From positions 10,715,517 through 10,779,516 of the forward strand of contig NC_053414.1 of the NCBI RefSeq assembly GCF_016859285.1: DNA of 64,000 nt. The letters are read 5' to 3'. The notes below the pieces were generated by a model. It made no database searches and was not told the origin of the DNA. It worked only from the letters and a program-made list of their open reading frames with translations. Shown here in pieces: positions 1 to 64,000 of this stretch (position 1 is its first letter; the number at the start of each line of letters is the position of its first letter). The position numbers and the translations under genes were made by a program. Origin of the DNA: Xiphias gladius. Taxonomy: Eukaryota > Chordata > Actinopteri > Istiophoriformes > Xiphiidae.

Positions 1-1378
1 TTAATATTAAATTCTATTAAAACATAAGCATTTGCTTTTTCTTCAAACTAGTGTAGATATTGCGCATGTAACCGTATTAAACCGTTTTAACTGTACTAGA
101 TAGTTTTAATGCTACCGAAGACGACAACACAGTCGTTAAGATCATCTAATAATAAACAACCGGGAAGGCTCATAGTATGAGAATCATCATTGATAGATTG
201 TTAATCAGTTTTTTATTATCATTATTATTATTTTCAGTTTTAGTATGTCGCTTGTTATCAGTGGAACTAAAGTTGACGGTTAAGGGGCTGATCGACCGCT
301 ATTTTGTAACACGACCTGTAGCAAAGTAGTTAGCAAAGCTAACACTAGCGGGCTAACATCGCTTCATCCAAAACGACATGCTGGCTGAAATCTTGCACGG
401 AAAAGGTGGGTGTCACGAAAATATGAACACATCTCAATGCTTAATGTCAGTTAAAACAAAGAAACGCTGAGAGAGGTGCACCGAAAGAAATAGATCTTTG
501 ACATCGTCTACGACTTGCCAGCCTGTTTGACAGCTTCCTGTTATTTAGCTAGCAGCAAGCTTAGTGACGGTCGCTGTTTTAAGTAGCTTTGATGTAGGGA
601 AATGGCATCTTGTTGCTCGAAATAACTCACAACATACAGGCGTTGTTTACCTCGCGCTGGCGTATAACCGGCGGGTCAAGATTACTGTTATCTGTACCGA
701 GATTTCTCAATTTTTAGAGCTGCCGTGAGGACACAGTAAACGTTAGCTTGAAGGAGCATTAAGAGTCATCACAGCTCTCCACCATTTGTTAGGTTGTAAT
801 TTGCAGATTCCACGTTAAACTCGAATCTAAGCTGAAACTACCATAGCGACATTGTAGAAAGAGCCCACATTCATACCTGGCTGTTTTGATGGCCTTGCTT
901 AACGTTCCTAGCTGTAACGTTAGTAAACAACATATGTCAAACGTGGACCATCCAGCATTCATACATGTAGCATTTATAATATATAAATTCGTGCAATCGC
1001 AGCAAACATGAGGTTAGTTTTTAATGTATCGATTCAATGTTTGTTTACATTTACTTAATGGTTTATTATAGATTAGAATATTTGTGGATGTTAACATTTT
1101 TCTTCCAATTTCAAGAACCAGACACTTTAATCAACACATCATTGTGCCTTATATAGCTAATGAATGAATTTTCATTCGTAATAGGATAACCTAATGAAGT
1201 TATGAATCTGGTCATTGACATGCCAATTTACTCTGGGATGCAAGTGTCTGAAGCAACCATCAGACCAGTTTGTGCACACACTTCATGTGTGAAAGGAACA
1301 CTGAGCAGCCTGAGCAGCAGTACGTCCGACAACAAAATATCAATGTAAATCTAGGTTTTGTTTTGTTTTTTTCCTCAG
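1..1378 (+). other. Upstream region and 5' UTR side of osbp2
   Basis: No coding exon is visible here. A strong 3' splice site (T-rich tract then CAG, AG at 1377-1378) precedes the first coding exon, so at least one non-coding 5' exon and the promoter should lie to the left. I cannot place that exon's donor or the transcription start. The sequence is AT-rich with short fish-type GCTAAC motifs and has no clear TATA box or CpG island. Confidence 0.4.
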
Positions 1379-1415
1379 GCTCTAAACTCACCCAGTGAAA
1401 CCACAGGCTGTTCAG

Positions 1416-4400
1416 ATGTCAGAGCCTAAGCCCCCTACTCCAATCCCTGGAGACACATACAAGGGTTGGCTCTTCAAGTGGACTAACTACATAAAAGGTT
1501 ACCAGCGACGCTGGTTTGTTCTGAGCAATGGACTGTTGTCATATTATAGGTAAGTTATATCTAATTTATATGAATTTACAGGATTTTCCTGGACTCAACA
1601 TGTGGCCAAGGTGGTACTTAGCAGGGAGGGACATTGAGGCCATATACCCTAACCATACAGTCTATATTTAAATCTCACTCTTTTTCCCTAATTTAAGTAA
1701 AGCAGCCTTGTGAAAATAAAATGGTTCCACAATATTCCGTACAAACCAGTTATTTAGATCGCTGAGCTTTACCGTCCTTCATTCTGTTTTTCTTCAGGAC
1801 CCAGGCAGAGATGGGTCACACATGCCGAGGCACCATCAACTTGGCCACAGCCAATATTACTGTGGAGGACTCGTGCAATTTTGTCATTTCCAACGGTGGG
1901 GCACAGACGTACCACCTGAAGGCCAGCTCAGAAGTAGAGCGCCAGCGATGGATCACTGCGCTGGAGCTCGCCAAGGCAAAGGCCGTCCGTATGCAGTTAG
2001 AATCTGGTGAGAGGGAAGAAACATTGATTTGAGACATAAAATGAAAATCATATATACTGTAGCTTATAAAGCAGCAGCTATGAGAGGCACAAATGTGTGT
2101 ATTTCTCTGTGTGCAAAGCATTTTCTGGTGACATTTCTTTGTTTTGGTCATATTATCTTCCCTTTCTTCTTCCTTAGATGACTCAGGGGATGATTGTCCT
2201 GCAGTGCCCCCCACCTCAGGACAGGGGGGAGGCTGCCGTAACTCAGAAATCCAGTCCACACTACGGACACTGAGCAGCAAGGTGGAGGACCTCACCACCT
2301 GCAATGATCTCATTGTCAAGCATGGGTCTGCCCTCCAAAGGTAGCAGTTATCCGAGCAGTTTGACTTCTTTTGAAAGAAACAATTTTATTCAAAGAAAAG
2401 AGGGATGGGTGAAGGTCATTTATTTATTTTGTTTGTCTATTTATATGTTCCTTAATGTATTCCTTTATTCTACACACACAGGTCTTTGTCAGAACTGGAG
2501 GGGATTCGTGTCGGAGGGGACATGGGGGAAAAAATCAGACAAGTTACAGAGAGGGCCACACTGTTCCGAATCACCTCTAACGCCATGATCAATGTAAGTA
2601 TTCCCGGTTTAAATCACAGAGGAACACACTACACTGTTGTTGACTCTCTCGCTGACATGTTGCTGTTGTGTTCCCATGCTCCCCAAGGCATGTAGAGACT
2701 TCCTCTCCCTGGCCCAGAACCACAGTAAGCGCTGGCAGAAGGCCTTACAGACTGAAAGAGACCAGAGGATACGGCTGGAGGAGACTTTAGAGCAGCTGGC
2801 TAAACAGCACAATCACTTGGAAAGAGCTTTCAGGGGAGCGACAGTTCTCCCCCCTTCATTCAGCAATCCTGCCTTAGGTAACAAAGGTAAGGCTCTCAAC
2901 CCCAACCGAACCTCCACCTATCAACCGAGGCCAGTTGAGCCTTTTAGTCGCTCATTCATCCACTGTCTTTCTTCACTTTAGCTGGTGTTTCAGGAAAAGG
3001 TGATGCCAGTGACGAGGATGATGACAATGAGTTCTTTGATGCTATGGAAGACCCAGCAGAGTTTATTACTGTCCCTGCTGACCCCAAGTATCACAGGTTA
3101 TTAACTGTCTTTCTTTCTTCAAATGTCAGTATTTGTTTTGTTTTTTTAGTCTGAACTTTTTTCATTGTTTTCTCTCTTTACGTAATGTTTTGTCTTAAAT
3201 TTGCTGCTGTTTTGTCTCTCTGTTCTACAGGAGATCTGGCAGCAACGTTAGTGGGATCAGCAGCGAGATTGGAATGGACGATCAGTCGGTAAATGTGTGT
3301 TAAGTTGGTTTTTACAAGCAAGTCCTGATTTTGTATTGACTGGGCATCTTTTCTGCTTGTCAACACACCAAAGTTACCTGAACCTTAAGGTTGTTTTCCT
3401 TTTCTTCCTTCAGTTTGATGAACTGTCTTTGGCATCCAATCCGGAGTCTCCCCAGCCCCTTGAGCTGGAGCCAGTTAGACAAAGACGGACTCGTATCCCT
3501 GACAAGCCCAACTATTACCTCAATCTGTGGAGCATCATGAAGAACTGTATTGGAAAGGAGCTTTCAAAGATACCAATGCCTGTAGGAAACCCACACACTC
3601 TTTGGCATCTAAGTGTTTTTTTCTTTGATAATAATCAGAAGTAATCATACTTCTTCTCTGTGTGGCTTTGCACCTGCTAGGTGAATTTCAACGAACCCAT
3701 CTCAATGCTGCAGCGTCTATCTGAAGACCTGGAGTACTACGAGCTGCTGGATAAGGCTGCTAAATGTCAGAGTTCTCTAGAGCAGATGTGTTATGTTGCC
3801 GCTTTCACAGTCTCTTCCTACTCCACGACCGTCCACCGCACAGGGAAACCCTTCAATCCTCTGCTGGGAGAAACCTTTGAGCTTGATCGACTCAGAGAGT
3901 GTGGATACCGCTCCCTGTGTGAACAGGTATGTTGAACCAACATCCTAACTAATCAGGGAACACAGTCAACTATGGGCTTTTTGCAGTATATAGCTGTTTC
4001 CCTTTAGACTGAAGTTCTTGTTTACTTCCATGTACGGGATAACATTCAGGTTTTACCAGATTCCAGTTCTAAAAAATAAACATGCTTGAAGTATGTTTAA
4101 ACAAGCATTTTCATATTTATTTTGAACAGGTTCGAGCCATTACATTATCACAATGTTTAATATTTAACTTTGCTACCTCTTCTCTCCCTTCATTTCACTC
4201 ACCTCTTCTCAGGTGAGTCACCACCCACCTGCCGCAGCTCACCACGCTCTCTCTGAAAAGGGCTGGACCCTCAGACAGGAAATTACGCTAGCCAGCAAAT
4301 TTAGAGGAAAATATCTCTCTATCATGCCCTTGGGTGAGTGACTGTGTGTGTTTGTTGAACTGTTTGTTAGTCAGTGCACACTGTGTAAAAAATTAAAATA

Positions 4401-7400
4401 ATTCCTTATTTCTATGGAGTCTCTCATTTATAAGCTCATAACTTCTGTATGTGGGATTCAAGTTAAGTACATTTTCACGGAGCAGGATAAAAATTAAGAC
4501 TGTTGAATGTAACATCATTCCCTCTCTGTCACCAGGTTCTATCCAGTGTCTATTTGATAAGAGCAACAATCACTACTCTTGGAAAAAAGTTACTACAACA
4601 GTACACAACATTATTGTGGGGAAATTATGGATTGATCAGGTAACCCTAAAGCTGAGGAAGTGTTGATTAAACTTATGTTAACATCATTAAACATGTGACA
4701 CAACTACTAACTATTTAAGGAAAAATGAATGACATAGATGTCTTCAGCAAAACAAAAAACAGCAAAACATTTTGTCCCTTTCCGTTCTCTCCTTCCAGTC
4801 AGGGGAGATAGATGTGGTGAACCACAGGACAGGAGATCGCTGCCACCTCAAGTTTGCTCCCTACAGCTACTTCTCCAGAGATGTACCAAGAAAGGTGGGC
4901 TTTTCACATGTATTTTTTTTTCTTTGTATTGTTATTTTATGCTATAGCACTTACTGCATGTGAAACCAGACTTTACAGGGAGATAGAAATGCATAAACCT
5001 ACAGTTTTGGGTGTACCAGTAAATTATAGAGTTTTTTTTTATTTTTTATTTTTTATGACTGGATTGGGCTCTTGGCTGCTTGTTCAGAAATGATTTTGCT
5101 ACCCCGAAACCATGCAGCTATTAATTCTCTTAACTTGTATTACCATCTGTCAGCTTTTTTGATTACATTCTTCACTGAAAGCTATGTTTTTTCTCTCAGG
5201 TAACAGGGGTCGTAACAGATAAGGATGGAAAGGCCCATTACGTGCTGTCGGGAACATGGGATGAGAAGATGGAGTTTTCCAGGGTAATGCAGAGCAGCAA
5301 AGGCGAGAACGGCACTGAAGGCAAACAGAGGACCGTCTATCAGACCCTCAAAGCCAAAGAAATCTGGAGAAAGAACCCTTTGCCGTAAGCTGCTATTTTA
5401 TAGCAAAAGTTGAAAGTGCCTTTAAACAAATGGAGCTGTAGAGGCAGGGCAGTATACTGTGGCTTCGTGCCTGTGATCTTCTATTGTCATGACTTTTCAG
5501 AGAGGGAGCAGAGAACATGTACTACTTCTCCTCACTGGCCTTGAGTCTCAATGAACCTGAAGAGGGAGTGGCGCCAACAGACAGTCGAAGACGCCCTGAC
5601 CAGCGATTAATGGAGGATGGCCGTTGGGATGAGGCTAACGCAGAGAAACAGAGGCTAGAAGAAAAACAGCGCACGGCCCGTCGAGAAAGGGAGAGGGAAG
5701 CCGTTAAAGCAGCCAGCCCGCCAGACGAAGGTAGGAATGGAAAGAAGGCAGCTTGGTTTTGGCTATTTGTCTTGTGTTTCTGTCCAATGTTTTTTTTTTT
5801 TTCTTTTTACTGTTCATACATCTTTTGTCCACTTTGTCTGTCTTGGTATACTTTGTCTGCTTGTCTCTGTCTCAACCCTAAGCTGTCACTGAGGATTCAA
5901 TCAATGACTCACCCTTGAAAAGCAAGTACTCTTCTCTTAGTCTTTTCCCACCGTAGGTCTGCACTTTTTATTGACGCTAGAGTCGAAAACACACATACAA
6001 CATGTTTGTATGTGTAATAAGAAGGTGCTAAATGTCTTCTACATCATCTTGATAACAGCTCATTCACATTTTACTGTCCCTTCATACATTTCTGTTCCAT
6101 TTAGCTGATGCACAGGAGACTGGCACAGAAGCAAGTGAGGTTTCTGATGAAAGCAAGTATCACTTCACAGTTAAACATGAAGTGTACTTTTTAAAGGTGC
6201 TTTGAGTGGCATTTTAACAAAGCAGTGAGTAAGAAATGACCTTGGCATATCCACAGGAGGCCGATGGGCTTCTTTCTCTATTCTAAATGACTTCACAGTT
6301 ACTTAAACCAGTGCTGAGATTTGTGGAGAAAAACTTGCTTTTTGTCACATGCTGTTTGGAACAGGATACGCAAGATTCCCTCACCGGGCATTTTCAACTG
6401 TTCTTGTTCATGGTGGACAGAGCTAAATGTGACAGGTTGACAGAGGTCAGAGGTGATGTAATGCCCATTTTACATTACTAAATTTTTACCACGTGTACTT
6501 TGAAACATCAGTATAATCGGCTTAAACAAATGAGACCAGCACCGAATAAGTTTTGCACTTACATTAGTTTCGACATTACATTTGATAAGAGAGATTAAAT
6601 AGGAAAGTGCCTAATAGTTTTATGGCAAAAAAAAGCATTGATTGACATTTAAAAATGGGAGTAGGGCTGGTCAGTGTGGGGGGGGGGGGCGACTTCAACT
6701 GAAGAAACAGATATTTTCTTTGTAGCATAAAGCAAAGGCATTAATGGGAAACATGGCCATAATTTTAAGAAAAATGTTAGTACTGACGACATACTTACAT
6801 GAGATGGAGGTCAAAAATTGTCTCGACTGTGGCCTCTTTTGTTTATGATGAGTATACTGCCACAAGCAGCACTTTTAAAATGTACACAAACAAGAAACTG
6901 GTGTGGATTTTGGTCTCTGAGTTGTGGATTTACATCTTTCTTTTTGTGCTGGTGTTGCTCAGCTGACACAGAGGAGTCTCCCCCTCATACACCTGTTGCA
7001 TGCAAGTAGCCCCTTACACTTTCACTCACTATTCTTCTTTGTATCAATCATTTTTGGATCATACCCATTCTTTTATTTCTCATCTCCCAAAACTTCATCC
7101 GTCATTCCTCTTTTTCAGCCCCTTATGGACCACCACTCTTCCCTTATTTAAGCAAGTATTCTGGTCATGATGAAACACATACAGTGCAATTATTTGAGGT
7201 TTTCTAGTAATTTAGTAGAATCCAGATTAAAAAATCCTTGTTCATCTTCCATCATTTCCTCTTTACATCCTTTGCAACTTGCTCTCTCTTAGTGGAAGGC
7301 AAGGAAGGTCCTTATGGAGCTCCAGCCAAAAGCAAGTAACATCAGTCCTGCTCTCTATTGCCCCCACCCCCCCTTTTTTTAATTTTTTTTATTTTTTTGT

Positions 7401-7998
7401 TATTTAGCCATGTGTTAATGGTCCTTAGGTACTCTTATTGGGGACTAGCTTTAGCTAACTGTAGAATTTGCACAATAAACCCAGCACTCAAAGATTGTGT
7501 TTTAGTGTAGTATTTGTTAGTCACTGATCAGTATATACTTTGGTTCTGGGCAGTTAGTGCATTCACTGTGAGCCTTGTTCTCTCCTCATGGTACATGATA
7601 GAGAAAGTAATTGGTGTTTTCACCCAATGTGAACCGATATTTTGCCTCCTGCATTCGGTTTGAATAAGATGCATCTGAAGACCACGCAATCGGTAACATT
7701 TAATACTGTTATCTCTATTTCTTAGCCAACTATCTGAAGGCATATTGGCTTAATTTAAGCATGATATGTTGTCATGGCTCAGCGGCTTCCTAACCCTCAC
7801 CTCATGTCCCTCTAAAGCTTCTTCTTGGTGAAAGATGTTCTTTCTTTTCCTCCAGGCGCCCATCAAGACAACCACCATGCACTGTGGTTCGAGAAGCTAG
7901 ACGACCCCGTATCCGGAGAGACCTTGCATGTCTACAAGGGGGGTTACTGGGAGGCAAAGGACCAAGGCAGCTGGGACATGTGCCCTGACATCTTCTGA
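1416..7998 (+). CDS. osbp2: Oxysterol-binding protein, osbp2/ORP4-type (15 constitutive coding exons)
   Basis: Exons: 1416-1549, 1798-2006, 2178-2340, 2482-2593, 2688-2886, 2982-3096, 3231-3288, 3414-3581, 3681-3926, 4213-4333, 4536-4639, 4799-4894, 5200-5384, 5501-5730, 7856-7998. All have GT-AG borders and the phases sum to 2,283 nt (760 residues). The PH domain spans about 15-107 ([19 protein letters not shown]). A coiled-coil follows ([18 protein letters not shown]). A FFAT motif, EFFDAME, sits at 289-295 for binding VAP on the ER. The lipid-exchange domain starts near 366 and carries the family signature EQVSHHPP at 467-474. By family knowledge, such proteins move sterol and PI4P between ER and Golgi membranes. 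The C-terminal half ([19 protein letters not shown]) is closer to OSBP2 than [15 protein letters not shown] in the linker is OSBP-like. The long Gly/Ala-rich N-terminus of the mammalian proteins is missing, and the ATG directly precedes the PH domain. The 2877 donor is an alternative to 2886. Optional mini-exons between 5730 and 7856 are listed separately. Confidence 0.9.
5883..5921 (+). CDS. osbp2: osbp2 mini-exon 1 (39 nt, candidate GC-AG cassette)
   Basis: Acceptor CCCTAAG ends at 5882 behind a pyrimidine-rich tract. The exon is open in phase 1 and encodes [13 protein letters not shown], ending in phase 1 if the donor is GCAAGT at 5922-5927. Using the GT four bases further on makes the length 43 nt and breaks the frame of the conserved last exon. 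The acidic/Ser-rich peptide would extend the linker before the C-terminal ALWFEK segment. No transcript evidence is available. Confidence 0.6.
6105..6152 (+). CDS. osbp2: osbp2 mini-exon 2 (48 nt, candidate GC-AG cassette)
   Basis: Acceptor TTCCATTTAG ends at 6104. The phase-1 frame encodes [16 protein letters not shown], and the GCAAGT donor at 6153-6158 gives a 48-nt, frame-preserving exon. A second GCAAGT lies inside the exon at 6131-6136 but would give 26 nt and shift the frame. The peptide resembles mini-exons 1 and 3 (an A-x-T/Q-E-acidic-Ser pattern), suggesting exon duplication. Confidence 0.6.
6963..7001 (+). CDS. osbp2: osbp2 mini-exon 3 (39 nt, candidate GC-AG cassette)
   Basis: Acceptor GTTGCTCAG ends at 6962 after a T-rich tract. 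The phase-1 frame encodes [13 protein letters not shown], with donor GCAAGT at 7002-7007. The length of 39 nt keeps the frame. The start ADTEES parallels ADAQET of mini-exon 2. The exon is about 0.8 kb downstream of mini-exon 2. Confidence 0.6.
7119..7151 (+). CDS. osbp2: osbp2 mini-exon 4 (33 nt, candidate GC-AG cassette)
   Basis: Acceptor CCTCTTTTTCAG ends at 7118. The phase-1 frame encodes [11 protein letters not shown], with donor GCAAGT at 7152-7157 and a length of 33 nt. The Pro/Tyr/Gly-rich peptide resembles mini-exon 5 (GPYGAP). It also resembles the TPYDPY stretch I recall at this position of mammalian OSBP. Confidence 0.6.
   Translation, partial: PLMDHHSSLI
7293..7331 (+). CDS. osbp2: osbp2 mini-exon 5 (39 nt, candidate GC-AG cassette)
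   Basis: Acceptor GCTCTCTCTTAG ends at 7292. The phase-1 frame encodes [13 protein letters not shown], with donor GCAAGT at 7332-7337 and a length of 39 nt. It is the last of the array, 524 bases before the terminal exon at 7856. Joining it to the terminal exon gives a Ser codon at the junction and then [13 protein letters not shown]. Confidence 0.6.
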
Positions 7999-10680
7999 AC
8001 ACAGCGGAATCAGCCTGTTTCCCTCAGTAGTGTGCAAATGAGAAGATGGTAAGAGGTGGTCTACCTTACATCAGCTAAAGTGGGGAATCAAGCCTGACGT
8101 CAACCCATCTTCAATGTCTGTAGCTTCAACTGATCACCCCCCCCCCCAGCTCCCCTCTATTCCAGCAGAGATTTGCTCAGGATCAAGGGCATGTGGATTT
8201 CACCCTCAACGTAGTAACATTGCATCAGGTTGGTGTTCAGAATCCCCTCTCACTGCCCTGTCAAACACTTTATCTAGGTCTTGGTCTGCTACTTGGTCTC
8301 AGTCCAGGGACCTGTTGTACAGCCTTTGAGTTGCATTTGGCAGTCGGTTATTCTGTTAATGCCACTATGCATTTTCTTTGGAAGCACTATTGTCAGAGGC
8401 AAGATTCATCCCGATGACATCTTATAATATATTAGGTTTGCTTAGACAGAGTGAGCCACTACCTAACATGTAATTTATGTGTTTGTGTTTGTTGTGCACT
8501 CCTTATGTTTATTAATTTCACACTAAATTTATTGCAGCTTCCCCAGAACAGCACCACTGCAAGTCAAAGTCTAAATATACCCAACATTTTCAGTAGTTCA
8601 CACAGTAAATATTCACTACACCAGTTTCAGACCACATCAAATGCAAAAATAGAAAGGCGTCAGTGATACTGACAAAAGTGAGTTCAACAGGTTTTTTTTT
8701 TTTTTTTTCTTAAGGAATTAATTACTAGTATATTTAAGCAATTACTTTAAATGTGAAGTGTCACAAACACCAACATGATACAGAGTTTGCCTTTGAATTT
8801 ATGGTGAATTGCGGTGCTACTTTATTAACTGAAGTGAAACAACAAGTCTAGAGGTATATTATATCTACATATTAGCCTTCTTTTTTTTTTTTTAGTTTTT
8901 GCAGTCAACTAGGCTATTTCAAAATATGTTGGTGATAATAAAGGGCAGTGGTGTAGACCTGTAAAAGTAGTTCATTATGATTATGCCACTCCTCTTCCTG
9001 TAATACTCACTCTTGAAGCATAACATTTCCTTTGTCTTTGAGGAAAAATAATGGTAAACTGAAGTAGTGGTACCAACACAAATTTGTATTGGTACCGATG
9101 AAAATATGAAATACAAAAATATGAATGGCATTCTTGCAAACGACGAGGGAGGAAACATTTGAACGTCAGCAGTTCATTTTAAAGACTGTAGCTGTTGACC
9201 ATCTAATTGAAAGCAGGATCCAGGCCATATTGTCTGATGCAGTGTGTTAGATTTACTTTAATCCTTATGTCTAAGATAAAGTGTGTTAGCAAGTCTGCCC
9301 TGCTCCTCCACCCAAGTACATGAATTTCAGACTTGTATTTTCACACCTAAAGTTTGTAATACTTGGATCAACGATTTCAACGCTGCTTTCAAAGTAAGGG
9401 CTCACAGGACAACGGTTGTTTTGTGAGCCTCTGTTTAGTTGTGACTAAATTTAGAGCAGCAGGGCTGCACTCTAAGTTGTCACTGAGCTGTGCGCGGATT
9501 TCTTCCAGCTTGATGATTAGTTAAGTGATGTGAAATGAGGCAAGTGCTTTTGTCTTCCCGGTTTCCTTCAAACTTATTGACCATAGCTTTAATTTTGAAG
9601 TAGGATATTTTTGTCTTTGTGTTTTGTGACTGTAGATTTTTAACTGACAGCAATAAGAGTGCCTCAGTGCGTATACGTGTGGCACAAAATGTGATATGAG
9701 GGCAGTGTGAGGCAAGACGGCTAAAACTCTCTGTTTGTTGTCTGTCATTTGAGTGGAAGAAGGACTGTGGCTGATGGAATTGTTCATTTCATTTTAATAT
9801 TTAAGTGTACTTAAAAGGATAACACTGAAAATGAAGATCACAAAACATATTGTTGCAAATATTTCTGTTTTAAATATATTAAATAGTAAAGTAATTGTGA
9901 TTTTAACTTGTTATGTTGATAGACAACCTAGGGGCAGTGATGCAGTTTTAATTTTTTTTTTTTTTCTTTGTCATTTTTATTTACTCAGATCTGGAAATAT
10001 TTTCATTGTCTGAAGTGAGTGTACCATGTTACCATAAGTCACCCTTCACAGACTAGGAAAGCTTTATATTTTAAATTATAATCCTTTGTTTTTGATCTAC
10101 ACTGTTCCTTCCTACCGTCAACTTTTGCTTTGTACATCATTTAAACAGATATCTCGATACTAGATTACATCTCTTCAAGTACGGAATGAGTTTACAGGTT
10201 TCTTTCTGTCCTCTCTGTCCTTTTTAATACAATATAATCTTGATTTTTATCCACTGGTCTTAATTGTCTAGCCCAAGCATTACTTCTTTGTTTTTAACTG
10301 TTTCTTAAGTTTATACTTTTTTTTCATCTCTCTTATTGTTTAAGCTATGGTTTTTTTTTTCCCTGCACAAAATGAGACTGAAGGTATTATTGCACTTTAG
10401 TACAGTACATCAGTGATTTAATTTGCCCTTGATTTTGACTGATTAACGGTCAGCTTTTGATGTCCGCTACTGAAGACTTTGTCACTTTGTGAGTTTGTTT
10501 TGGAAACTATTCCTAAACCATGTTCAGTAATTGCAAACATATGTACATAAGTAAAAAATATACATATGTATCACTTTCAGTCTGAGCATACTTTTCCCCT
10601 TTTCTGTCAATTAATTGTTTTTTAAGCAAGATTGTATTAGAGGTTGACAATATTAAAGTCTGTATGGACATGAAGTGCAT
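7999..10680 (+). other. osbp2: Probable osbp2 3' UTR
   Basis: This is non-coding, AT-rich sequence after the TGA. Candidate poly(A) signals are AATAAA at 8937-8942 and ATTAAA at 10652-10657; the latter is followed by a GT-rich stretch and looks the better end. A Pumilio-type TGTANATA match (TGTACATA) lies at 10542-10549. The extent is inferred only from these signals. Confidence 0.4.
9400..9428 (+). other. Near-perfect hairpin in putative osbp2 3' UTR
   Basis: Inverted arms GCTCACAGGACAAC and GTTGTTTTGTGAGC can pair along almost the whole 29 nt, with two G-U wobbles, leaving only a tight central loop. It is visible directly in the sequence. Its function is unknown. Confidence 0.4.
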
Positions 10681-12100
10681 ATCTTTGGTTTCATTAATTT
10701 TTCTTTCAACAGTAAATCACAAAACAACTCATACTAGTTAAGATTTATAAAGCATAATTTTACTTTTATTTTAACCTGCTTGAAGTGGTGTACAGGTGGG
10801 TTTAACCACATTAAATACGCAATACCAGGCAAAAAAAAATATGTTAAATAAAAGATATCTCTAAACACTCGAGGTAGAAATGTAAATCTTCATCTGTGCA
10901 GTTATAGCATAGTACCCAGCATTCAGTCTGCAACATCTAATGACTGATGGGGCTCATTTCATAAATACAGACCTGGAAAAATTCAGTGATGATTAGTGAG
11001 GATATGGCAGAAAAAAGTCTGTATTTCCATGGGGTAAGCATGGTCTCAAACAACGTTTTCCTTTCTCTCTGGTCACTTAACAGTAATGTTAAATAAAAAT
11101 CCTGGGCCAAGTTTGTCCAGGGCTCCATTGTATTTAGATTTTGCTTTTCTTTTTTTAACTTAAGCAAACGTAGCCAAATCACAATGTAAAGGTCTAGCAT
11201 CCAAAATTACACCTAAGAATAGAGCATACAGTCAACTCTAGTGTCAGGTAGTATCATAAAACTCTAAATTAAAAGTGCTCATACAGAAAGGTTAGTTAGA
11301 AATGTTATATTACTGGATAATTACTGATGCACTAATGTGTAAACAGTATATATTAATTCTGCCTTGTTGAAGTACAGCTAGTCTAGTCTTGACTGCCTTA
11401 GTTAGTTAACAATTGTTGCTACCTAAGTAAAGTACTTGTGTAAATACGTTCCACAATAATACACAGCTTTTACTTGTGAGATAGTCTGGTTTATTATTCA
11501 GGCTTTCGATCAGTCAGTGTTTAGTCCTGTGAAATGCTAGTTTAGGAGAAAAACCATAGTAATTTTCTCCAACTCTTAGAAAAGTATTATCACAGATCTT
11601 TATCAAACAACATCCAATTTATAATGTTTACACATCCGTGACAGTCAACTAGAGCTTTATGATTAAAAATGATAGACTCTAGGGTGGCATGAAGTAGAGT
11701 TTATTTAGGAGAGAAAACAATTAAGTTTGAAATCTCCAGTTTAAAAAAAAACAACAGAATGTATGCATTAAAATCTCCTGATATAATATGCGGTAACATC
11801 AGGGGTAATAAAAATTTTTCTCTGGGAATTTGCGGGGTTTACGGGCAGTCTGAAACTGACACTGAGACTACAGGTCACTAGCAGTTTTTATAGGTGTATT
11901 TGAATGTTCTTACCGCTAGGGCAGTGCGAGGGAGGCTCGGAAACAGCATCGAGAACCCTCAACCCTCAATGAGAAACCTTTATTTTTAGTTAACTGAATA
12001 CATACGATATAAAAATCCAAATGGTGTGTCGGGTGAAAATTCCTTACTCGGTAATTGTTAGGGGGAGAAAAAAAAAAACAAAAAAAAAAAAAGCAATGGG
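10681..12100. other. Intergenic between osbp2 and casp3
   Basis: AT-rich sequence with no gene, splice-site pair or recognisable repeat that I can support. It contains short A/T homopolymers. The ORFs here are short and not conserved-looking. Confidence 0.5.
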
Positions 12101-33412: not shown

Positions 33413-36400
33413 TAATGTCCCCCCCCTTTGAATAGGGTGACATTATGCAAGTAGCACTTTTTATGTTGTCATTATTTTTATTATAATACTATCTCTTCTT
33501 GTGAAGCTTAGGGCTCTTTAGGTCCTCACCAGAATTTTCTGATTGCAGTTCTCACATAGTGCGAGACAATGATTTTATCTGGTGTTTTTTTTAGTGATGT
33601 GTTTTTACCGTCTCCAAATTGCCCTTCTACTCCAACAAAATGTCCACAATGTCCTTTATTTTGACAGTTTGAACATAAGCAATGTTGTTTACGGAGAGTA
33701 TAAATTAATTAAATTCAGTATTATTCTCAAACAGTATTGGTGAAATAGCCTAAAATGCACGAAAACAGAGTGATCATCTTCAGATTCCTAACACAAGGCT
33801 TAAGAGCACAGGTTTAACCACCACACACAGCCAAGTTGTCAGTTTTTTAATGGGAAGCATGTCCTTCAAATTTTATCTTTACTTTAATACAATACCAGAG
33901 TGGAAATGAGTTGAACTAATAGGTTGCATCATTTCTGAGGGGTGATGTAATGTCAGGCAACACATGGTATTGCAAGACAGTGGTTATGAACGGTGTTGTT
34001 AGTTAATGTTGATTTGGTAATTTATAGTATGTAAACTCTTTAAGTTGACTGATAGTGCTTTGTATTCAAATTACCTATTCAGTCATTTGCGTCCTCTGCG
34101 AACTGAAGTAATTAGTTTATTCATTTATTCAAACACACATATTAAATCTTAGATCATGTTATAGTATCAGTATTATAGATAAAAACCATGAGCATTCCTG
34201 AAAATGCATTAAAAAATTCCTTGAAAAGACCTCACCATTATTATCTGATAGCAGTCCTCACATAGTGCTGGCAGAAAAATCGGTTAAATCATGATCGATT
34301 CATTTTGATTGTCTTTTTTGTATCTCCAAATTGTTCCAATGCGCCAATACAATGATCACAATGGCTTGTATTTTAACTGTTACATATCACATTCTCTTAA
34401 AATAAGTATATAAAACTGTGCATCAACTTAGTCTAATCTGTTTCCTTCAGGCGTGCCTACACCAAGCTCAGAGGTTCTGCGACATACCCTGAACATGCTG
34501 GTGCGAGAGAGGAAGATCTACCCAACTCCAGAGGGCTACTTCATTGTCACTCCCCAGACCTACTTTATAACTCCCTCCCTCATTAGAACCAACAACAAGT
34601 GGTATCACCTGGATGATCGGCTGCCAGAGCGCCAACAGCAAATACAACAGCAACAACATCAACAGCAACAGCAGCAACCTCAGCAATGCACTTCGCCTCA
34701 GTCTGGCAACATCACACCATCCACACCTGGCTGTCTGAGAGAGAGACCTCCTCGCAAGAATCACAATGACTCATACAATTCCTATCGCGAAGACCCCTCC
34801 AGACTTCACGCCTCTGCGCTCCAAAGTAAGTCACCAAAGGAGCACAGGGGGGATTCCTATCAGAGTAAGCCACCTAAGGATCACAACAGCGGGGAACCTC
34901 CACCGAGCGCTTCAGCCAAGGAGCACCGAGGAGAACCACCTTCATACCCCTATCCCCCGCTTCCCACCTCCCCTCCTGTCCAGCAGCAACCACCGCCTCA
35001 AGATCCAGCCGATAAGAGCAAAAGCATCACTTCTTTCCCTTATAAAACTGACACTCTGACCAAAAAGAAAGAAGGAAGTGGTGGTGGTGGAAGTGGCGAG
35101 AAGCAATCCAAAAGGTTTGGACTCAGGCTGTTCAGACTGAGTTTCAAGAAGGACAAAATGCGGCAGCTGGCCACCTTCTCAGCCCAATTCCCCCCAGAGG
35201 AGTGGCCTCTTCGTGACGAAGATGTGCCAACCACGCCCATTCCCCGCGAGGTGGAGATGGAGATTATCCGCCGAATCAACCCTGACCTAACAGTGGAGAA
35301 TGTGGCAAGGCACACAGCTGTGATGAAGAGGCTGGAAGAAGAGCGTACACAGAAGAACAAGGCAGGGTCTTCGGCCCAGCACAGTGCACGCAGCAGGAGG
35401 GGGAGGGGCCACCGGAGGGCTCCACATGGTAAGTCCCGCTCTCATAGCAAACCCCGGACCTCTAGGGGAGACCCATCTGAGGGTTCAAACTGGGACCTCG
35501 TGTTCATGGAAAGAGATTACCGCTTCTTTAGCCACTCGTTAGTTCGCTCGCCTCGGGAGGCCATGTACACCTTGGAGCGCAGGCGAAGTGGAGGTGCAAC
35601 TTACCTAGTCCACAGCAACCCCAACATTACTGAATCATACTGCCCTGTTACCCCTGAGTGGGACGTGTCTGGGGAGCTAGCCAAGAGACGGACGGAGATG
35701 CCCTTCCCCGAGCCATCACGTGGAACTTGCCAGTCCAGAGTGCAAAGAAGTCACAGTCACAATCAGGACCGGAAGTCACGTCACGAGAGGTCCGATCAAG
35801 CTAAAGAACGATCTCGATCCATGGACAACTCCCTCAAGGGCCTGTCACTGGGTGCGCCAGAAGACTTTGAACCCAGTCTGGAGGAGCGTAGTCATTACTA
35901 CACTGATGACGGCACCCTGCGGGCCACGCAGAAGTCCTCCCACTACTCAAGGATCATGTTCTCTGCTGCTAAGTTCCACTCGGATTTTAATGTGCCTGAT
36001 TTGGGGAAAGGGAGTTTGGACGAGTCAAGGATCCGGAGTACGATGGAGAGGAACAAAAGCAGAGACAGCTTGCCAACGTACAATGAGCTAATGGGACTTT
36101 CTCCTAAGCCCTCAACAGATGAGTACTTCCAGTGCAATACGTCAAATGAAACAATCCTAACTGCCCCTTCGCCTCAGGCAAAATCAGAATATGACACATT
36201 AACCTCATCAGGGGGACTCCGAAAGGGCTCTCCGGCTGACCGCCAAACGCCTCACCTCACCTCTCCTCATACAATGGAGTACAAAGAGGACTCGTCGGCA
36301 GCAAAGGGACAAAATGGCTCGGTACGACTGACACCGAGCCAGACGCCGGAGCCGGTACAAAATGCCCGTTTGACGCCACACCAACACAATGTAGATCCCG

Positions 36401-39311
36401 GAGGGGGAGGAGGCGGTATGGTGATCAAGAGGAAAGAAATCTTCAGCAAGGACACTTTGTTCAAACCTCCACACAATGCCTTGTCCACAGGCTACGTGGA
36501 CAGCAGCTACACCAAGTCCGGCACATTGCGGAAAGCCTCACATGCCAAATCAACAGAGGCCCTAGACAATCCTGAGCCCCAGCAGCCTTCCAATTCAGCC
36601 ACTTCCTCAGCGTCACCTGCAGTTTTACAGAGCTGCTTAGAGCCAACAGTCCCCTCCGCCTCCTTTGACTATTATAATGTATCAGACGATGAGGAAGAGG
36701 AAGAGGCAGAGGAGGACTCGCACAAAGAGTTGGCTACTACAGAGGACAACAAAGACCATGGGGAAGGGGGTGGTAATGGTGGAGGCAGTGGTGGTGGTGG
36801 GGAGGGAACCATGCAGTGGCTCCTGGAGCGTGAGAAGGACCATGATCTGCAGCGGAAACTGGAGACCAATCTGACCTTACTCAGCCCCAAGGAGACGGAG
36901 AACAGCAGCAGCCAGAAGTCAGCCCACTCTGCCCGTTTGGACAGCATGGACAGCAGCAGTGTCACAGTGGACAGCGGATTCAACTCCCCCAGGTGTGTGG
37001 AAACGTAAACTGCATATTACATAAAACTGCAACTTAGAGTGTGTTTTGGATAAGTAAATATAACACAGTGGGACCGAAGGTATTCCAAAATGTTTGGGAT
37101 ACTCTCAAACCAGGTACTGACACATGTGGTCCTTATATAACATATCTACAGTCACTCAAAGTTGAGTGAAATTCACGAACCCTTTCTTGCACCCCCAAGC
37201 TAAATGAAAGATGTCATCGTGGTAGCTGTGAAGGCTCTAAGGCCAAATCATTTTATTCTTACTATGCTTTTGGCAATTCTGTGTTATCCACCTGTTAATC
37301 TACAGTCTCACTGTAGCTGGTGATGCTCCAGAAGTAAGATGAATGACAAATCTGTCACAAAGGAGGAGAAAGAGGCTGGTTTATATAGTTACATTACAAT
37401 TCAGGTCTTAACTTAATAATTATATCTAGAATAATGTTTTATGGAACACAATCCAAATGCGAACACTGAATAGGCAGAATTGTACCCTGGACATTCTTAC
37501 TGTTCTCATCTTAAGAACATCTTTTAAAGGCTTATTCCAACTGTGCTATCTTATCAAATTAAAAAGTTTGTGAATCAAGGCATCCTGGCAGCATTGCGGT
37601 TAGGAAGCATAACATGCAATAACAATGTCAAAGGTTCAAGTCCACCCTGGGAACTTTTTTAACATGTCACTCCCCATCTCTTCCCATGTTTCCTGTCCAC
37701 TCTTCTTTTGCTAAACAAGTACCAGGTTCCTGCTTTTAACAGCCGTCAAATAATATTTCTGACAGCAAAATCTCTCTCAAGACTAGACATAAAGTATGTT
37801 GTTTTCAATAAAAGGTGTGTAGCAGTTTTGTGCTCAAGCCCCATTGCACCAGTTTCGACCCTGGATTGGGATTTTGTGTAAAGCACACACATAAGACTGT
37901 AAATATGTTAATTAAAGTGTGCCCACCCTCACAGTCTGATCCAGATATTTGAACAGATAGATTCACTACTGTCATTACATTGATGAAAGTCATCAGATTC
38001 ATGATGCCTAACAATAAATCTGCATACAATTAATTAACAGTTCATTCTGTTGGTTGGTCTAACTGGAATGGCACGTAAAGAAGTTTAGTAATTCACAGAC
38101 ACAGTGGATCACACTGAGTTGTGACATGAAAGACTCATTTTCTTTTTTTTTTATCTTGATAGCAATAACTGACCTTTGGAAGTGACTGTAATAATTTTAT
38201 AATAATAAAACACTCTTTTGTCCCAACTTTAAACAAAACAGTGATAGTAACAAGCATATAAAAGTAAAGTACATACAAACAAGATGAATTGTTTCAACTT
38301 CACATTAGCAACTGCAAATATCTGTCTATCAGACAAATGTACTAGCAAGCTATTTCTCATCCTTCAGTGGAACATGAGCATAGTGCAGCAGTTTGTGAAG
38401 CACCTAAGCCATAGTTACCAGACAGTTAAAGGGGTATTCCACCAATTTAGTGTTTCACTTCCATAAAGTTGTTGGATTTAATAGTCAAAATCAAAGCAGC
38501 AGAGGCCGACTTTATGGCCTAGCTCCAAGAACTTACCAAAATGGAACTCGGTTACATCTGTCATTGGCCCCCCGAAATTTGATACCAACTATACCAACTC
38601 CGTATAGACACAAAACAGAGCAAAAGGAGAGTGAATATTTGACTAACGTTCACCAAGTGGTCAGAATCACAACTCAAAAGGAATGATAATGTTGTTCCAT
38701 AACTGCTGGATTTGTAAATATGTCAATGTTGTGTTCACAACCTGTTTCCACTGTCCCCAAGTGGGAAAAAATGTCATTGCAGCTTTAAGGCTTATACTTC
38801 TCTTTTATTATCTCTTTTTTATATATTTGTATGTATTTTCAAGATGAATGACCTAAAAAAAACTTTGCACTGCCTTTCCCAGTCCTGGAAGGAATTTGCT
38901 CTTTTTATTATTCTTAGTAACTCCAATTTATCTGCTTCTTTCATCAGTCAAAATATGCTTTAAAATAGTTTCATTTTAGAGGTATCCCTCTTTCTTGCCA
39001 ACCACCACATATACTGTACACAACATGAACACATTTTCATTTGGGTATTTTAATTCATGGTGTATTTTTGAAAGCAAGCACTTGACTTTATGTTATCTCT
39101 GTTGCACAGGACACGTGAAAGCCTTGCATCCAACACATCCAGCATTGTGGAAAGCAATAGACGGCAGAATCCAGCACTGAGCCCAGGCCACATCGGCACC
39201 AGTAGCATCGGACTGCCATTCAGCTTTCGCGCCATCCCAGAGCCCCCCACCACACAGCCTGAGAAACTCCAGAAGTCATCAAACTGCCTGGCCTCCATCA
39301 CCAGCGTCTGA
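21619..39311 (+). CDS. stox2: Storkhead-box protein 2
   Basis: Exons: either 1a (21619-21979) or 1b (30518-30695), then 32373-32525, 34451-36992, 39110-39311. Both first exons end in phase 1, giving 1,085 or 1,024 residues (human STOX2 is about 926). In the 1b isoform the storkhead winged-helix domain runs from about 61 to 167 (DVSPISMSPISQSQFIPLGE, then GYFIVTPQTYFITPSLIR). Further conserved blocks are KQSKRFGLRLFRLSFKKDK, FSAQFPPEEWPLRDED, PREVEMEIIRRINPDLTVEN, EWDVSGELAKRRTEMPFPEP, SFDYYNVSDD and LDSMDSSSVTVDSGFNSPR. The C-terminus ends SITSV, which fits a class I PDZ ligand. A Gln-rich insert (34633-34686) follows the winged helix. By family knowledge it is a putative DNA-binding regulator. 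The human neighbour relation of STOX2 and CASP3 (4q35) supports the call. Confidence 0.95.
24765..24906 (+). mobile_element. Interspersed repeat copy A (shared with 38.6 kb)
   Basis: The block AACAGAGCTAAAAGGAAAGT plus GAATATTT and the later GTCAGTGTTGTGTTGCA and TTTAAGG match the copy at 38605-38790 in the same order. The full element probably begins further left, near 24490. It is a non-autonomous repeat with no ORF. Confidence 0.5.
26829..26859 (+). repeat. (ATT)n microsatellite
   Basis: About ten tandem ATT units inside stox2 intron 1. Confidence 0.85.
27310..27770 (+). mobile_element. Percomorph-type interspersed repeat
   Basis: Segments such as GGATTGCCATGAGACTTTGT, CTTTCATCTAGCGCCATGAT, TCCAGTACTTTGGTTTATGA, CCCATCAGCCTCAGCTGTAC and CACAGAGCTGCTAGC occur in the same order in a very common percomorph fish element that I know from many loci. 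It has no coding capacity. The boundaries are approximate. Confidence 0.65.
27872..28217 (+). mobile_element. TAGGGCTGCAA-type MITE, copy 1
   Basis: It begins TCTAGGGCTGCAATGAAC and ends with a decayed inverted copy, ATCGTTCCGGCTCTAA. Internal landmarks are GATGTCAGAAAATAGTGAAA, a T22 run at 28021-28042 and ATTTGAGAAGCTGGAA. This is a widespread fish inverted-terminal-repeat element. A second copy in the opposite orientation lies at 32949-33244. Confidence 0.7.
28500..30517 (+). promoter_or_regulatory. stox2: Internal stox2 promoter and 5' leader for exon 1b
   Basis: A pyrimidine-rich, locally GC-elevated stretch with CT and CA microsatellites (29341-29426) precedes the classical STOX2 start. 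A strong acceptor (C/T-rich tract then CATCAG, ending at 30060) suggests that the exon holding the MKK start is spliced from an upstream non-coding exon in this stretch. Several upstream ATGs, for example near 30089, would make short uORFs. The start site itself is not determinable. Confidence 0.4.
30518..30695 (+). CDS. stox2: stox2 alternative first exon 1b (classical MKK start)
   Basis: ATG at 30518 encodes MKKNRSSNLRRAWPSSEL and RSEKDIRVPK, matching the known STOX2 start MKKTRSTTLRRAWPSS. A proline-rich tail and YRAPG follow. The donor GTGAGT is at 30696 and the exon ends in phase 1, the same as exon 1a. The frame stays open upstream to about 30383 without an ATG. The ATG is chosen because of the human match. 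Confidence 0.9.
32949..33244 (-). mobile_element. TAGGGCTGCAA-type MITE, copy 2 (inverted)
   Basis: It ends GGTTAATCGATTGCAGCCCT, the reverse complement of the start of copy 1. It contains TTCACTATTTTCGGACATTT, the inverse of the internal GTCAGAAAATAGTGAA landmark. Its left end ATAGATCTGAAACAATTAG is the decayed partner terminus. Confidence 0.65.
33329..33403 (+). repeat. (TG)n microsatellite
   Basis: About 37 uninterrupted TG units in a stox2 intron. Expected to be length-variable. Confidence 0.95.
37807..37812 (+). terminator. stox2: Candidate intronic poly(A) signal in stox2
   Basis: AATAAA with a GT-rich downstream element within about 10 bases. It would end a transcript lacking the last coding exon. 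Confidence 0.35.
38430..38790 (+). mobile_element. Interspersed repeat copy B
   Basis: It starts AAAGGGGTATTCCACCAATT and ends TCATTGCAGCTTTAAGG. It shares AACAGAGC-AAAAGGAGAGT plus GAATATTT, TAATGTTGTTCCATAACTGC and TCAATGTTGTGTTC with copies I know from fish genomes and with 24765-24906 here. No ORF is present. Confidence 0.55.

Positions 39312-45804: not shown

Positions 45805-64000
<18,196 letters not shown>

Follow-up and report, generated by a model that had tools for sequence, protein, structure and literature searches.

The probable osbp gene and its neighbourhood

The window, meaning the whole 64-kb stretch of DNA analysed here (C15:10715517-10779516, from a genome of 690 Mb), carries a gene for an oxysterol-binding protein, the principal features of which are collected in Table 1. 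Pfam identifies a PH domain (residues 15-103) and an Oxysterol_BP domain (residues 367-748) in the predicted 760-aa protein; this pairing of a PH with an oxysterol-binding domain is that of the OSBP/OSBP2 type, and the best solved relative of the protein is human OSBP (PDB 7v62, E 6e-185). When the genome was searched at the protein level with exons 14 and 15, three genes were recovered, namely the one in the window, a paralogue on C12 and a further gene on C20. Exons 14 and 15 of the C12 gene are 84% and 63% identical to those of the window gene, and those of the C20 gene 73% and 55%. A pattern scan with the exon 14 peptide gave 372 matches in other genome contigs and 41 in viral contigs, among which no fish-like sequence was confirmed.

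Table 1. Positions of the osbp gene, its last exons and the candidate mini-exons in window coordinates
Feature	Position	Strand	Description
osbp coding span	1416..7998	+	ATG at 1416, TGA at 7996-7998; 15 coding exons, 760 aa, mini-exons left out
Exon 14 (penultimate constitutive exon)	5501..5730	+	ends in phase 1, GACGAAG|GTAGGA
Mini-exon 1	5883..5921	+	39 nt, 13 aa; weak acceptor CTAAG; donor AAAA|GCAAGTACT; homologue in the C12 paralogue
Mini-exon 2	6105..6152	+	48 nt, 16 aa; donor AAA|GCAAGTATC
Mini-exon 2, alternative 30-nt in-frame form	6105..6134	+	GT donor CAA|GTGAGG at 6135, matrix score 3.97
Mini-exon 3	6963..7001	+	39 nt, 13 aa; donor CAT|GCAAGTAGC; related to mini-exons 1 and 2
Mini-exon 4	7119..7151	+	33 nt, 11 aa; donor TAA|GCAAGTATT; strongest acceptor of the five
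Mini-exon 5	7293..7331	+	39 nt, 13 aa; donor AAAA|GCAAGTAAC
AATAAA followed by GT-rich sequence	7474..7479	+	downstream of the stop met if the mini-exon 5 donor is unused; candidate signal for a composite terminal exon
Terminal exon, coding part	7856..7998	+	entered in phase 1; ...ALWFEKLDD...CPDIF*

The initial annotation had labelled this gene osbp2; its place in the OSBP/OSBP2 type is upheld by the two Pfam domains, and the choice of osbp2 over osbp is doubtful. In its lipid-binding domain the window gene shares 85.4% identity with the C12 copy, 71.5% with human OSBP (PDB 7v62) and 70.2% with the C20 gene, which itself shares 67.5% with human OSBP; in this comparison of the window, C12 and C20 genes with human OSBP, the values of 71.5% and 70.2% are too close and the identities leave the choice between osbp and osbp2 unsettled. 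A presumably SART1-like ORF lies ~3 kb to the left of the window; ~20 kb away from the start of the C12 gene is a deltex-like ORF that carries a WWE domain, and an ORF of the triose-phosphate-transporter family lies ~5 kb past the C20 gene. Because the neighbourhoods of the C12 and window genes fit OSBP (human 11q12-13) and that of the C20 gene fits OSBP2 (22q12), the window gene is probably osbp, a preference drawn largely from these neighbourhoods. A translated comparison of stretches of 60 kb and 40 kb revealed no neighbour genes common to the window and C12 or C20, returning just two weak matches of <55% identity over 32-33 aa. It is plausible that the osbp duplication dates to the teleost whole-genome duplication.

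Other open frames were seen in the window and on C12. An 858-aa frame at 34432-37008 of the window, presumably STOX2-like, begins with a Storkhead winged-helix match and has relatives on C23 and C11, not on C12. Several CUB- and EGF-like open frames occupy 47435-62428 on the minus strand (one CUB domain confirmed, the other domains assigned by eye) and, in our judgement by eye, resemble a tolloid-like gene. On C12, a Thr-rich, mucin-like open frame of 1476 aa is found at about 10439374-10443801, on the strand opposite to the C12 osbp gene.

Five candidate mini-exons in the last intron

The last osbp intron (5731-7855) holds all five candidate mini-exons. The initial annotation described five phase-1 open segments of 39, 48, 39, 33 and 39 nt, each ending in GCAAGT, and these are borne out; the common end is in fact longer, A-N-GCAAGTA, with 8 invariant positions in the five mini-exons and in a copy in the C12 paralogue. 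A sixth GCAAGT is located at 6131, within mini-exon 2, and together with the GT donor at 6135 takes up 6131-6140. At 33-48 nt the segments fall within the limit of ≤51 nt by which a microexon has been defined (PMC12064062), with flanking splice sites known here from sequence alone.

Chance clustering or a repeat, with no exons at all, was weighed against several controls. In 3000 dinucleotide-preserving shuffles of the intron, combinations of an in-phase acceptor with GCAAGT numbered zero, one, two and three in 2769, 194, 34 and 3 shuffles, respectively, with a maximum of 3, as compared to 7 combinations on 5 distinct donors in the real intron; the acceptor threshold was that of the weakest of the five, a post hoc choice that favours the finding but was applied to the shuffles as well. 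The extended word GCAAGTA occurs nine times on the plus strand of the window, five of them in this intron. On both strands of ~204 kb, comprising the window with the 40 kb on its left, 60 kb from C12 and 40 kb from C20, the highest count per 1450 nt is 5, in the last osbp intron; a single place on C12 reaches 2, and everywhere else the maximum is 1. On the side of chance or a repeat can be set the U1 pairing, which is at background level (see below), together with a Tandem Repeats Finder run that shows no array in positions 1-12000 and a short-repeat scan that gives mainly brief two-copy families. The shuffles, the regional word counts and the conservation in the paralogue all speak against this reading, which we consider extremely unlikely. 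When mini-exon 1 and the 36 bases that follow it were searched against the genome as DNA, only the query itself was returned; as this search also missed the C12 homologue, it argues against recent dispersed copies only. Both chance and a recent dispersed repeat were rejected.

A homologue of mini-exon 1 in the C12 paralogue

The corresponding C12 intron, of 285 nt, has a single GCAAGT, which ends a 39-nt segment lying behind an AG acceptor, CTGTCGATGAGGACTCTCTTACTGATCCCTCCTTAAAAA. This segment matches mini-exon 1 of the window in length, phase and the GCAAGTA word (7/7 identical), and 27 of its 39 nt are identical to mini-exon 1, distributed over the three codon positions as 9/13, 11/13 and 7/13. 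None of 5000 shuffles of the C12 intron equalled the observed match of 34/46 (shuffle maximum 28). The encoded peptide, AVDEDSLTDPSLK, is similar to the 13-aa peptide of mini-exon 1. The flanks have diverged, with 17/60 identities upstream and 29/60 downstream. Inclusion of the C12 segment is in frame with the GC donor, and a donor shifted to the GT at +4 leads to a stop behind ...LKSKLTS. Mini-exon 1 is very likely a real coding exon. The array itself is real as a feature of the sequence, and the observation is stronger than the initial annotation had it because an evolutionary replicate exists in the same genome.

No such exon was found in the 496-nt C20 intron, where the best match to mini-exon 1 was equalled by 886 of 2000 shuffles, and the C12 intron holds nothing homologous to mini-exons 4 and 5. 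A pyrimidine-rich stretch was observed directly after the weak donor of mini-exon 1, at 5922-5950 of the window, and after that of the C12 copy (minus strand), the first 20 bases being alike at 16 positions; it is possibly a site for a U-rich-binding splicing factor.

Relations among the mini-exons

Global alignments were made of all 15 pairs of the five mini-exons and the C12 copy, each scored against 1000 shuffles without correction for multiple pairs. No shuffle reached the score of mini-exon 1 with 3, of 2 with 3, or of the C12 copy with mini-exon 1; the C12 copy was equalled by 1/1000 shuffles when aligned with mini-exon 3 and by 3/1000 with mini-exon 2. Values rose to 12/1000 for mini-exon 5 with the C12 copy, 53/1000 for mini-exon 1 with 2, 62/1000 for mini-exon 4 with the C12 copy and 64/1000 for mini-exon 4 with 5; the other six pairs, which are those of mini-exons 4 or 5 with 1-3, gave 90 to 482 of 1000. 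As these scores tie mini-exon 3 to both 1 and 2, the first three mini-exons probably arose as duplicates. An in-frame PYG-x-P stretch (13/15 bases) is common to mini-exons 4 and 5, which show no clear relation to mini-exons 1-3 and may be of other origin. The proposal that the whole array arose by exon duplication is supported for the first three and not clearly so for the last two.

These relations bear on whether only mini-exon 1, or only mini-exons 1-3, might be working GC-AG exons, the rest being decayed or chance copies. The absence of mini-exons 4 and 5 from the paralogue and their lack of clear relation to the others favour such a restriction, against which all five hold an open phase-1 frame with the 8 invariant positions, and mini-exon 4 has the best acceptor of all. 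We regard the restriction as possible though somewhat doubtful; it overlaps the reading preferred below and does not compete with it exclusively.

Reading frame, splice-site strength and donor register

With GC donors, all five mini-exons are open and in phase 1, and every one of the 32 inclusion patterns ends in the native C terminus (...CPDIF), as the initial annotation had claimed; all 32 likewise stay open when the 30-nt form of mini-exon 2 is swapped in. A rival reading accepts the exons and places the donor at the GT four bases downstream (CAA|GTA), in which case a single inclusion would shift the frame of the last exon and swap the conserved C terminus, acting as a switch-off or as a C-terminal switch. 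The earlier statement that this donor breaks the C terminus and produces a TGA at a mini-exon join was confirmed: the native end is kept in only 4/32 patterns (none included; 1+4+5; 2+4+5; 3+4+5), and the join of mini-exon 1 to mini-exon 2 gives TGA straight away. Under this reading the differences in length among the mini-exons (+9, -6), which preserve the frame, would lack an evident reason, and the invariant GC would sit unexplained within the exon.

Splice sites were scored with donor and acceptor matrices built on approximate frequencies, so that the scores are rough. Mini-exons 1-5 have acceptor scores of -1.1, 3.0, 2.2, 6.9 and 1.8, compared to 0.8 to 11.8 for the other 14 acceptors of the gene under the same matrix; the description of all five as strong acceptors is therefore not sustained, with just that of mini-exon 4 strong. 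At the donors, 5/5 window mini-exons and the paralogue copy show GC at intron +1/+2 and have an AG acceptor further downstream, and since the latter copy carries GCAAGTA, GC stands in all six. All six also have A at -2 and AAGT at +3 to +6. G is the usual base before a donor, and here that base is A or T in every case and G in none, in keeping with a caveat raised in the initial annotation. The donor consensus has been given as (A/C)AG|GT(A/G)AGT, and GC-AG introns are described as having the rest of the donor near consensus (PMC2490688); in the osbp donors the -1 G is absent and the U1 duplexes are weak. A minor-spliceosome (U12) donor was rejected, the six donors being unlike the U12 consensus.

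Pairing was modelled with the 5' end of U1, with U in place of pseudouridine. Each of the six donors forms its best duplex through AAGUA(U), spanning +3 to +7/+8 of the GC register, with energies of -2.8 to -3.3 kcal/mol, compared to a mean of -7.7 kcal/mol for the gene's 14 ordinary donors. The GC register stays the best for U1 at all six, though with weak pairing, even when the stretch around the downstream GT is folded, which supports the register originally proposed. Among background sites in window 11001-34000, 31-36% of 1470 GT sites and 14-21% of 1034 GC sites pair with U1 as well or better; pairing at this level therefore fails by itself to mark the six sites as donors. Such weak pairing fits regulated cassette exons yet is the main reason for doubt.

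The downstream GT gains some credit from being the usual dinucleotide and from the match of GCAAGT to GYNNGY, a known class of tandem donors (PMC4267661). Its matrix scores are -3.4 to -0.4, the least bad site being that of mini-exon 5, where it is not worse than the GC donor once a GC penalty is added by hand. Taken with the U1 register and the frame results, these scores make the downstream GT unlikely as the donor, and GC is likely the donor of mini-exon 1. Within mini-exon 2, the internal GT at 6135 forms a duplex of -5.1 kcal/mol, versus -3.3 for the GC donor, and because it pairs better with U1 this mini-exon may be used mainly as the 30-nt exon with GT-AG splicing.

Alternatively, the donors could be read through to give composite terminal exons, with proteins ending ...SK* or in a short tail and an intronic polyadenylation site. 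A stop lies two codons past the donor in mini-exons 3 and 5, and mini-exon 5 (TAA) offers the best case, with an AATAAA at 7474 followed by GT-rich sequence; the read-through tails of mini-exon 1 (11 letters) and of the paralogue (SKYSSFCLFL*) are alike, and human and mouse genes with GC-AG introns are reported to be richer in alternative last exons (PMC7242645). The stretch that is alike past mini-exon 1 is, however, pyrimidine-rich, and the 285-nt C12 intron has no AATAAA or ATTAAA. In the window intron the AATAAA at 7474 is the only one, and ATTAAA is found twice, at 6594 and at 7226; a near polyadenylation signal is therefore missing for most of the mini-exons. Composite terminal exons are thus very unlikely.

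A proposed weak, regulated cassette array

The preferred reading, to which we assign a probability of roughly 0.7, is that these are weak, regulated GC-AG cassette mini-exons that vary the OSBP linker. The last osbp intron would contain five candidate cassette mini-exons of 33-48 nt spliced as GC-AG introns. Since each GC donor pairs with U1 over about +3 to +8 only, it would be weak, and inclusion would occur only where splicing regulators help. Each mini-exon would add 11-16 residues, 66 if all were used, leaving the frame unshifted and lengthening an acidic, Ser- and Pro-containing linker that would follow the sterol-transfer domain's presumed long C-terminal helix, as in ORP structures, and precede the last conserved segment of that domain. 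The coding nature of the mini-exons, the phase argument and the linker location proposed initially are all supported. Mini-exons 1-3 would derive by tandem duplication from an exon already present when osbp duplicated.

That all six copies have C, not T, at +2 suggests that the weakness itself is selected, such that inclusion stays regulated. The chance that free drift would leave all five other copies matching the C of the first may be put at ~1 in 32, if C and T are equally acceptable at +2 and the sites drift freely; these assumptions are strong, since recent copies would share C by descent. It is plausible that the five mini-exons form one regulated combinatorial module. The fuller version of this idea, in which selection would have preserved the weak GC of such a module in all duplicates and also in the paralogue ever since osbp duplicated, with up to 32 in-frame linker forms as the yield, is put forward tentatively, at less than even odds.

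GC-AG introns account for 0.8% of human protein-coding introns (PMC7242645), or ~0.9% of human splice sites (PMC4176328). In mammals, conversions from GT to GC have been counted at 298 versus 40 for the reverse; selection for alternative splicing has been proposed as a cause, with neutral fixation followed by recruitment judged more plausible (PMC2490688). The osbp donors resemble vertebrate GC-AG introns in having GC at +1/+2, AAGT at +3 to +6 and, presumably, a tie to alternative splicing (PMC7242645, PMC2490688), and differ in that five are adjacent in one intron and all six carry A or T at -1. A precedent is the mouse Snap23 microexon, a short cassette exon that has GC at its 5' splice site; its inclusion is regulated through the weak donor and becomes complete when GT is put in place of the GC (PMC12064062). 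Snap23 has a single such exon, whereas the osbp intron has five candidates and the paralogue one more, read from the genome sequence of one species, and the osbp donors lack a G ahead of the GC. GYNNGY tandem donors, whose alternative use is described as mostly noise and in part regulated, often via nonsense-mediated decay, formally include GCAAGT (PMC4267661); in osbp, unlike that class, the GT further on is not in frame and is weak, and the conserved word pairs with U1 in the GC register. The array is also like the general class of tandemly duplicated alternative exons, in which related neighbour exons share one intron and one phase, with the difference that the osbp lengths are multiples of three, so that any subset is open and mutual exclusion is not forced.

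In the titles and abstract openings covered, on GC-AG tandem exon duplication, OSBP2 alternative splicing and zebrafish OSBP splice variants, no such array is described; the subscription literature lay largely outside this scope, so prior publication is possible. Two unannotated osbp exons emerge after injury of the zebrafish telencephalon, and as the passage that describes them gives no position within the gene (PMC8162057) they are a lead only. Because the mini-exons are short and their donors non-standard, RNA aligners and gene callers could easily miss them. If the proposal is true, five GC donors in a row and one in the paralogue, each with C at +2, would provide a natural replicate test of whether selection retains weak GC donors so that exons stay regulated, a possibility raised beside neutral fixation and later recruitment (PMC2490688), and a much studied lipid-transfer protein would possess a modular linker.
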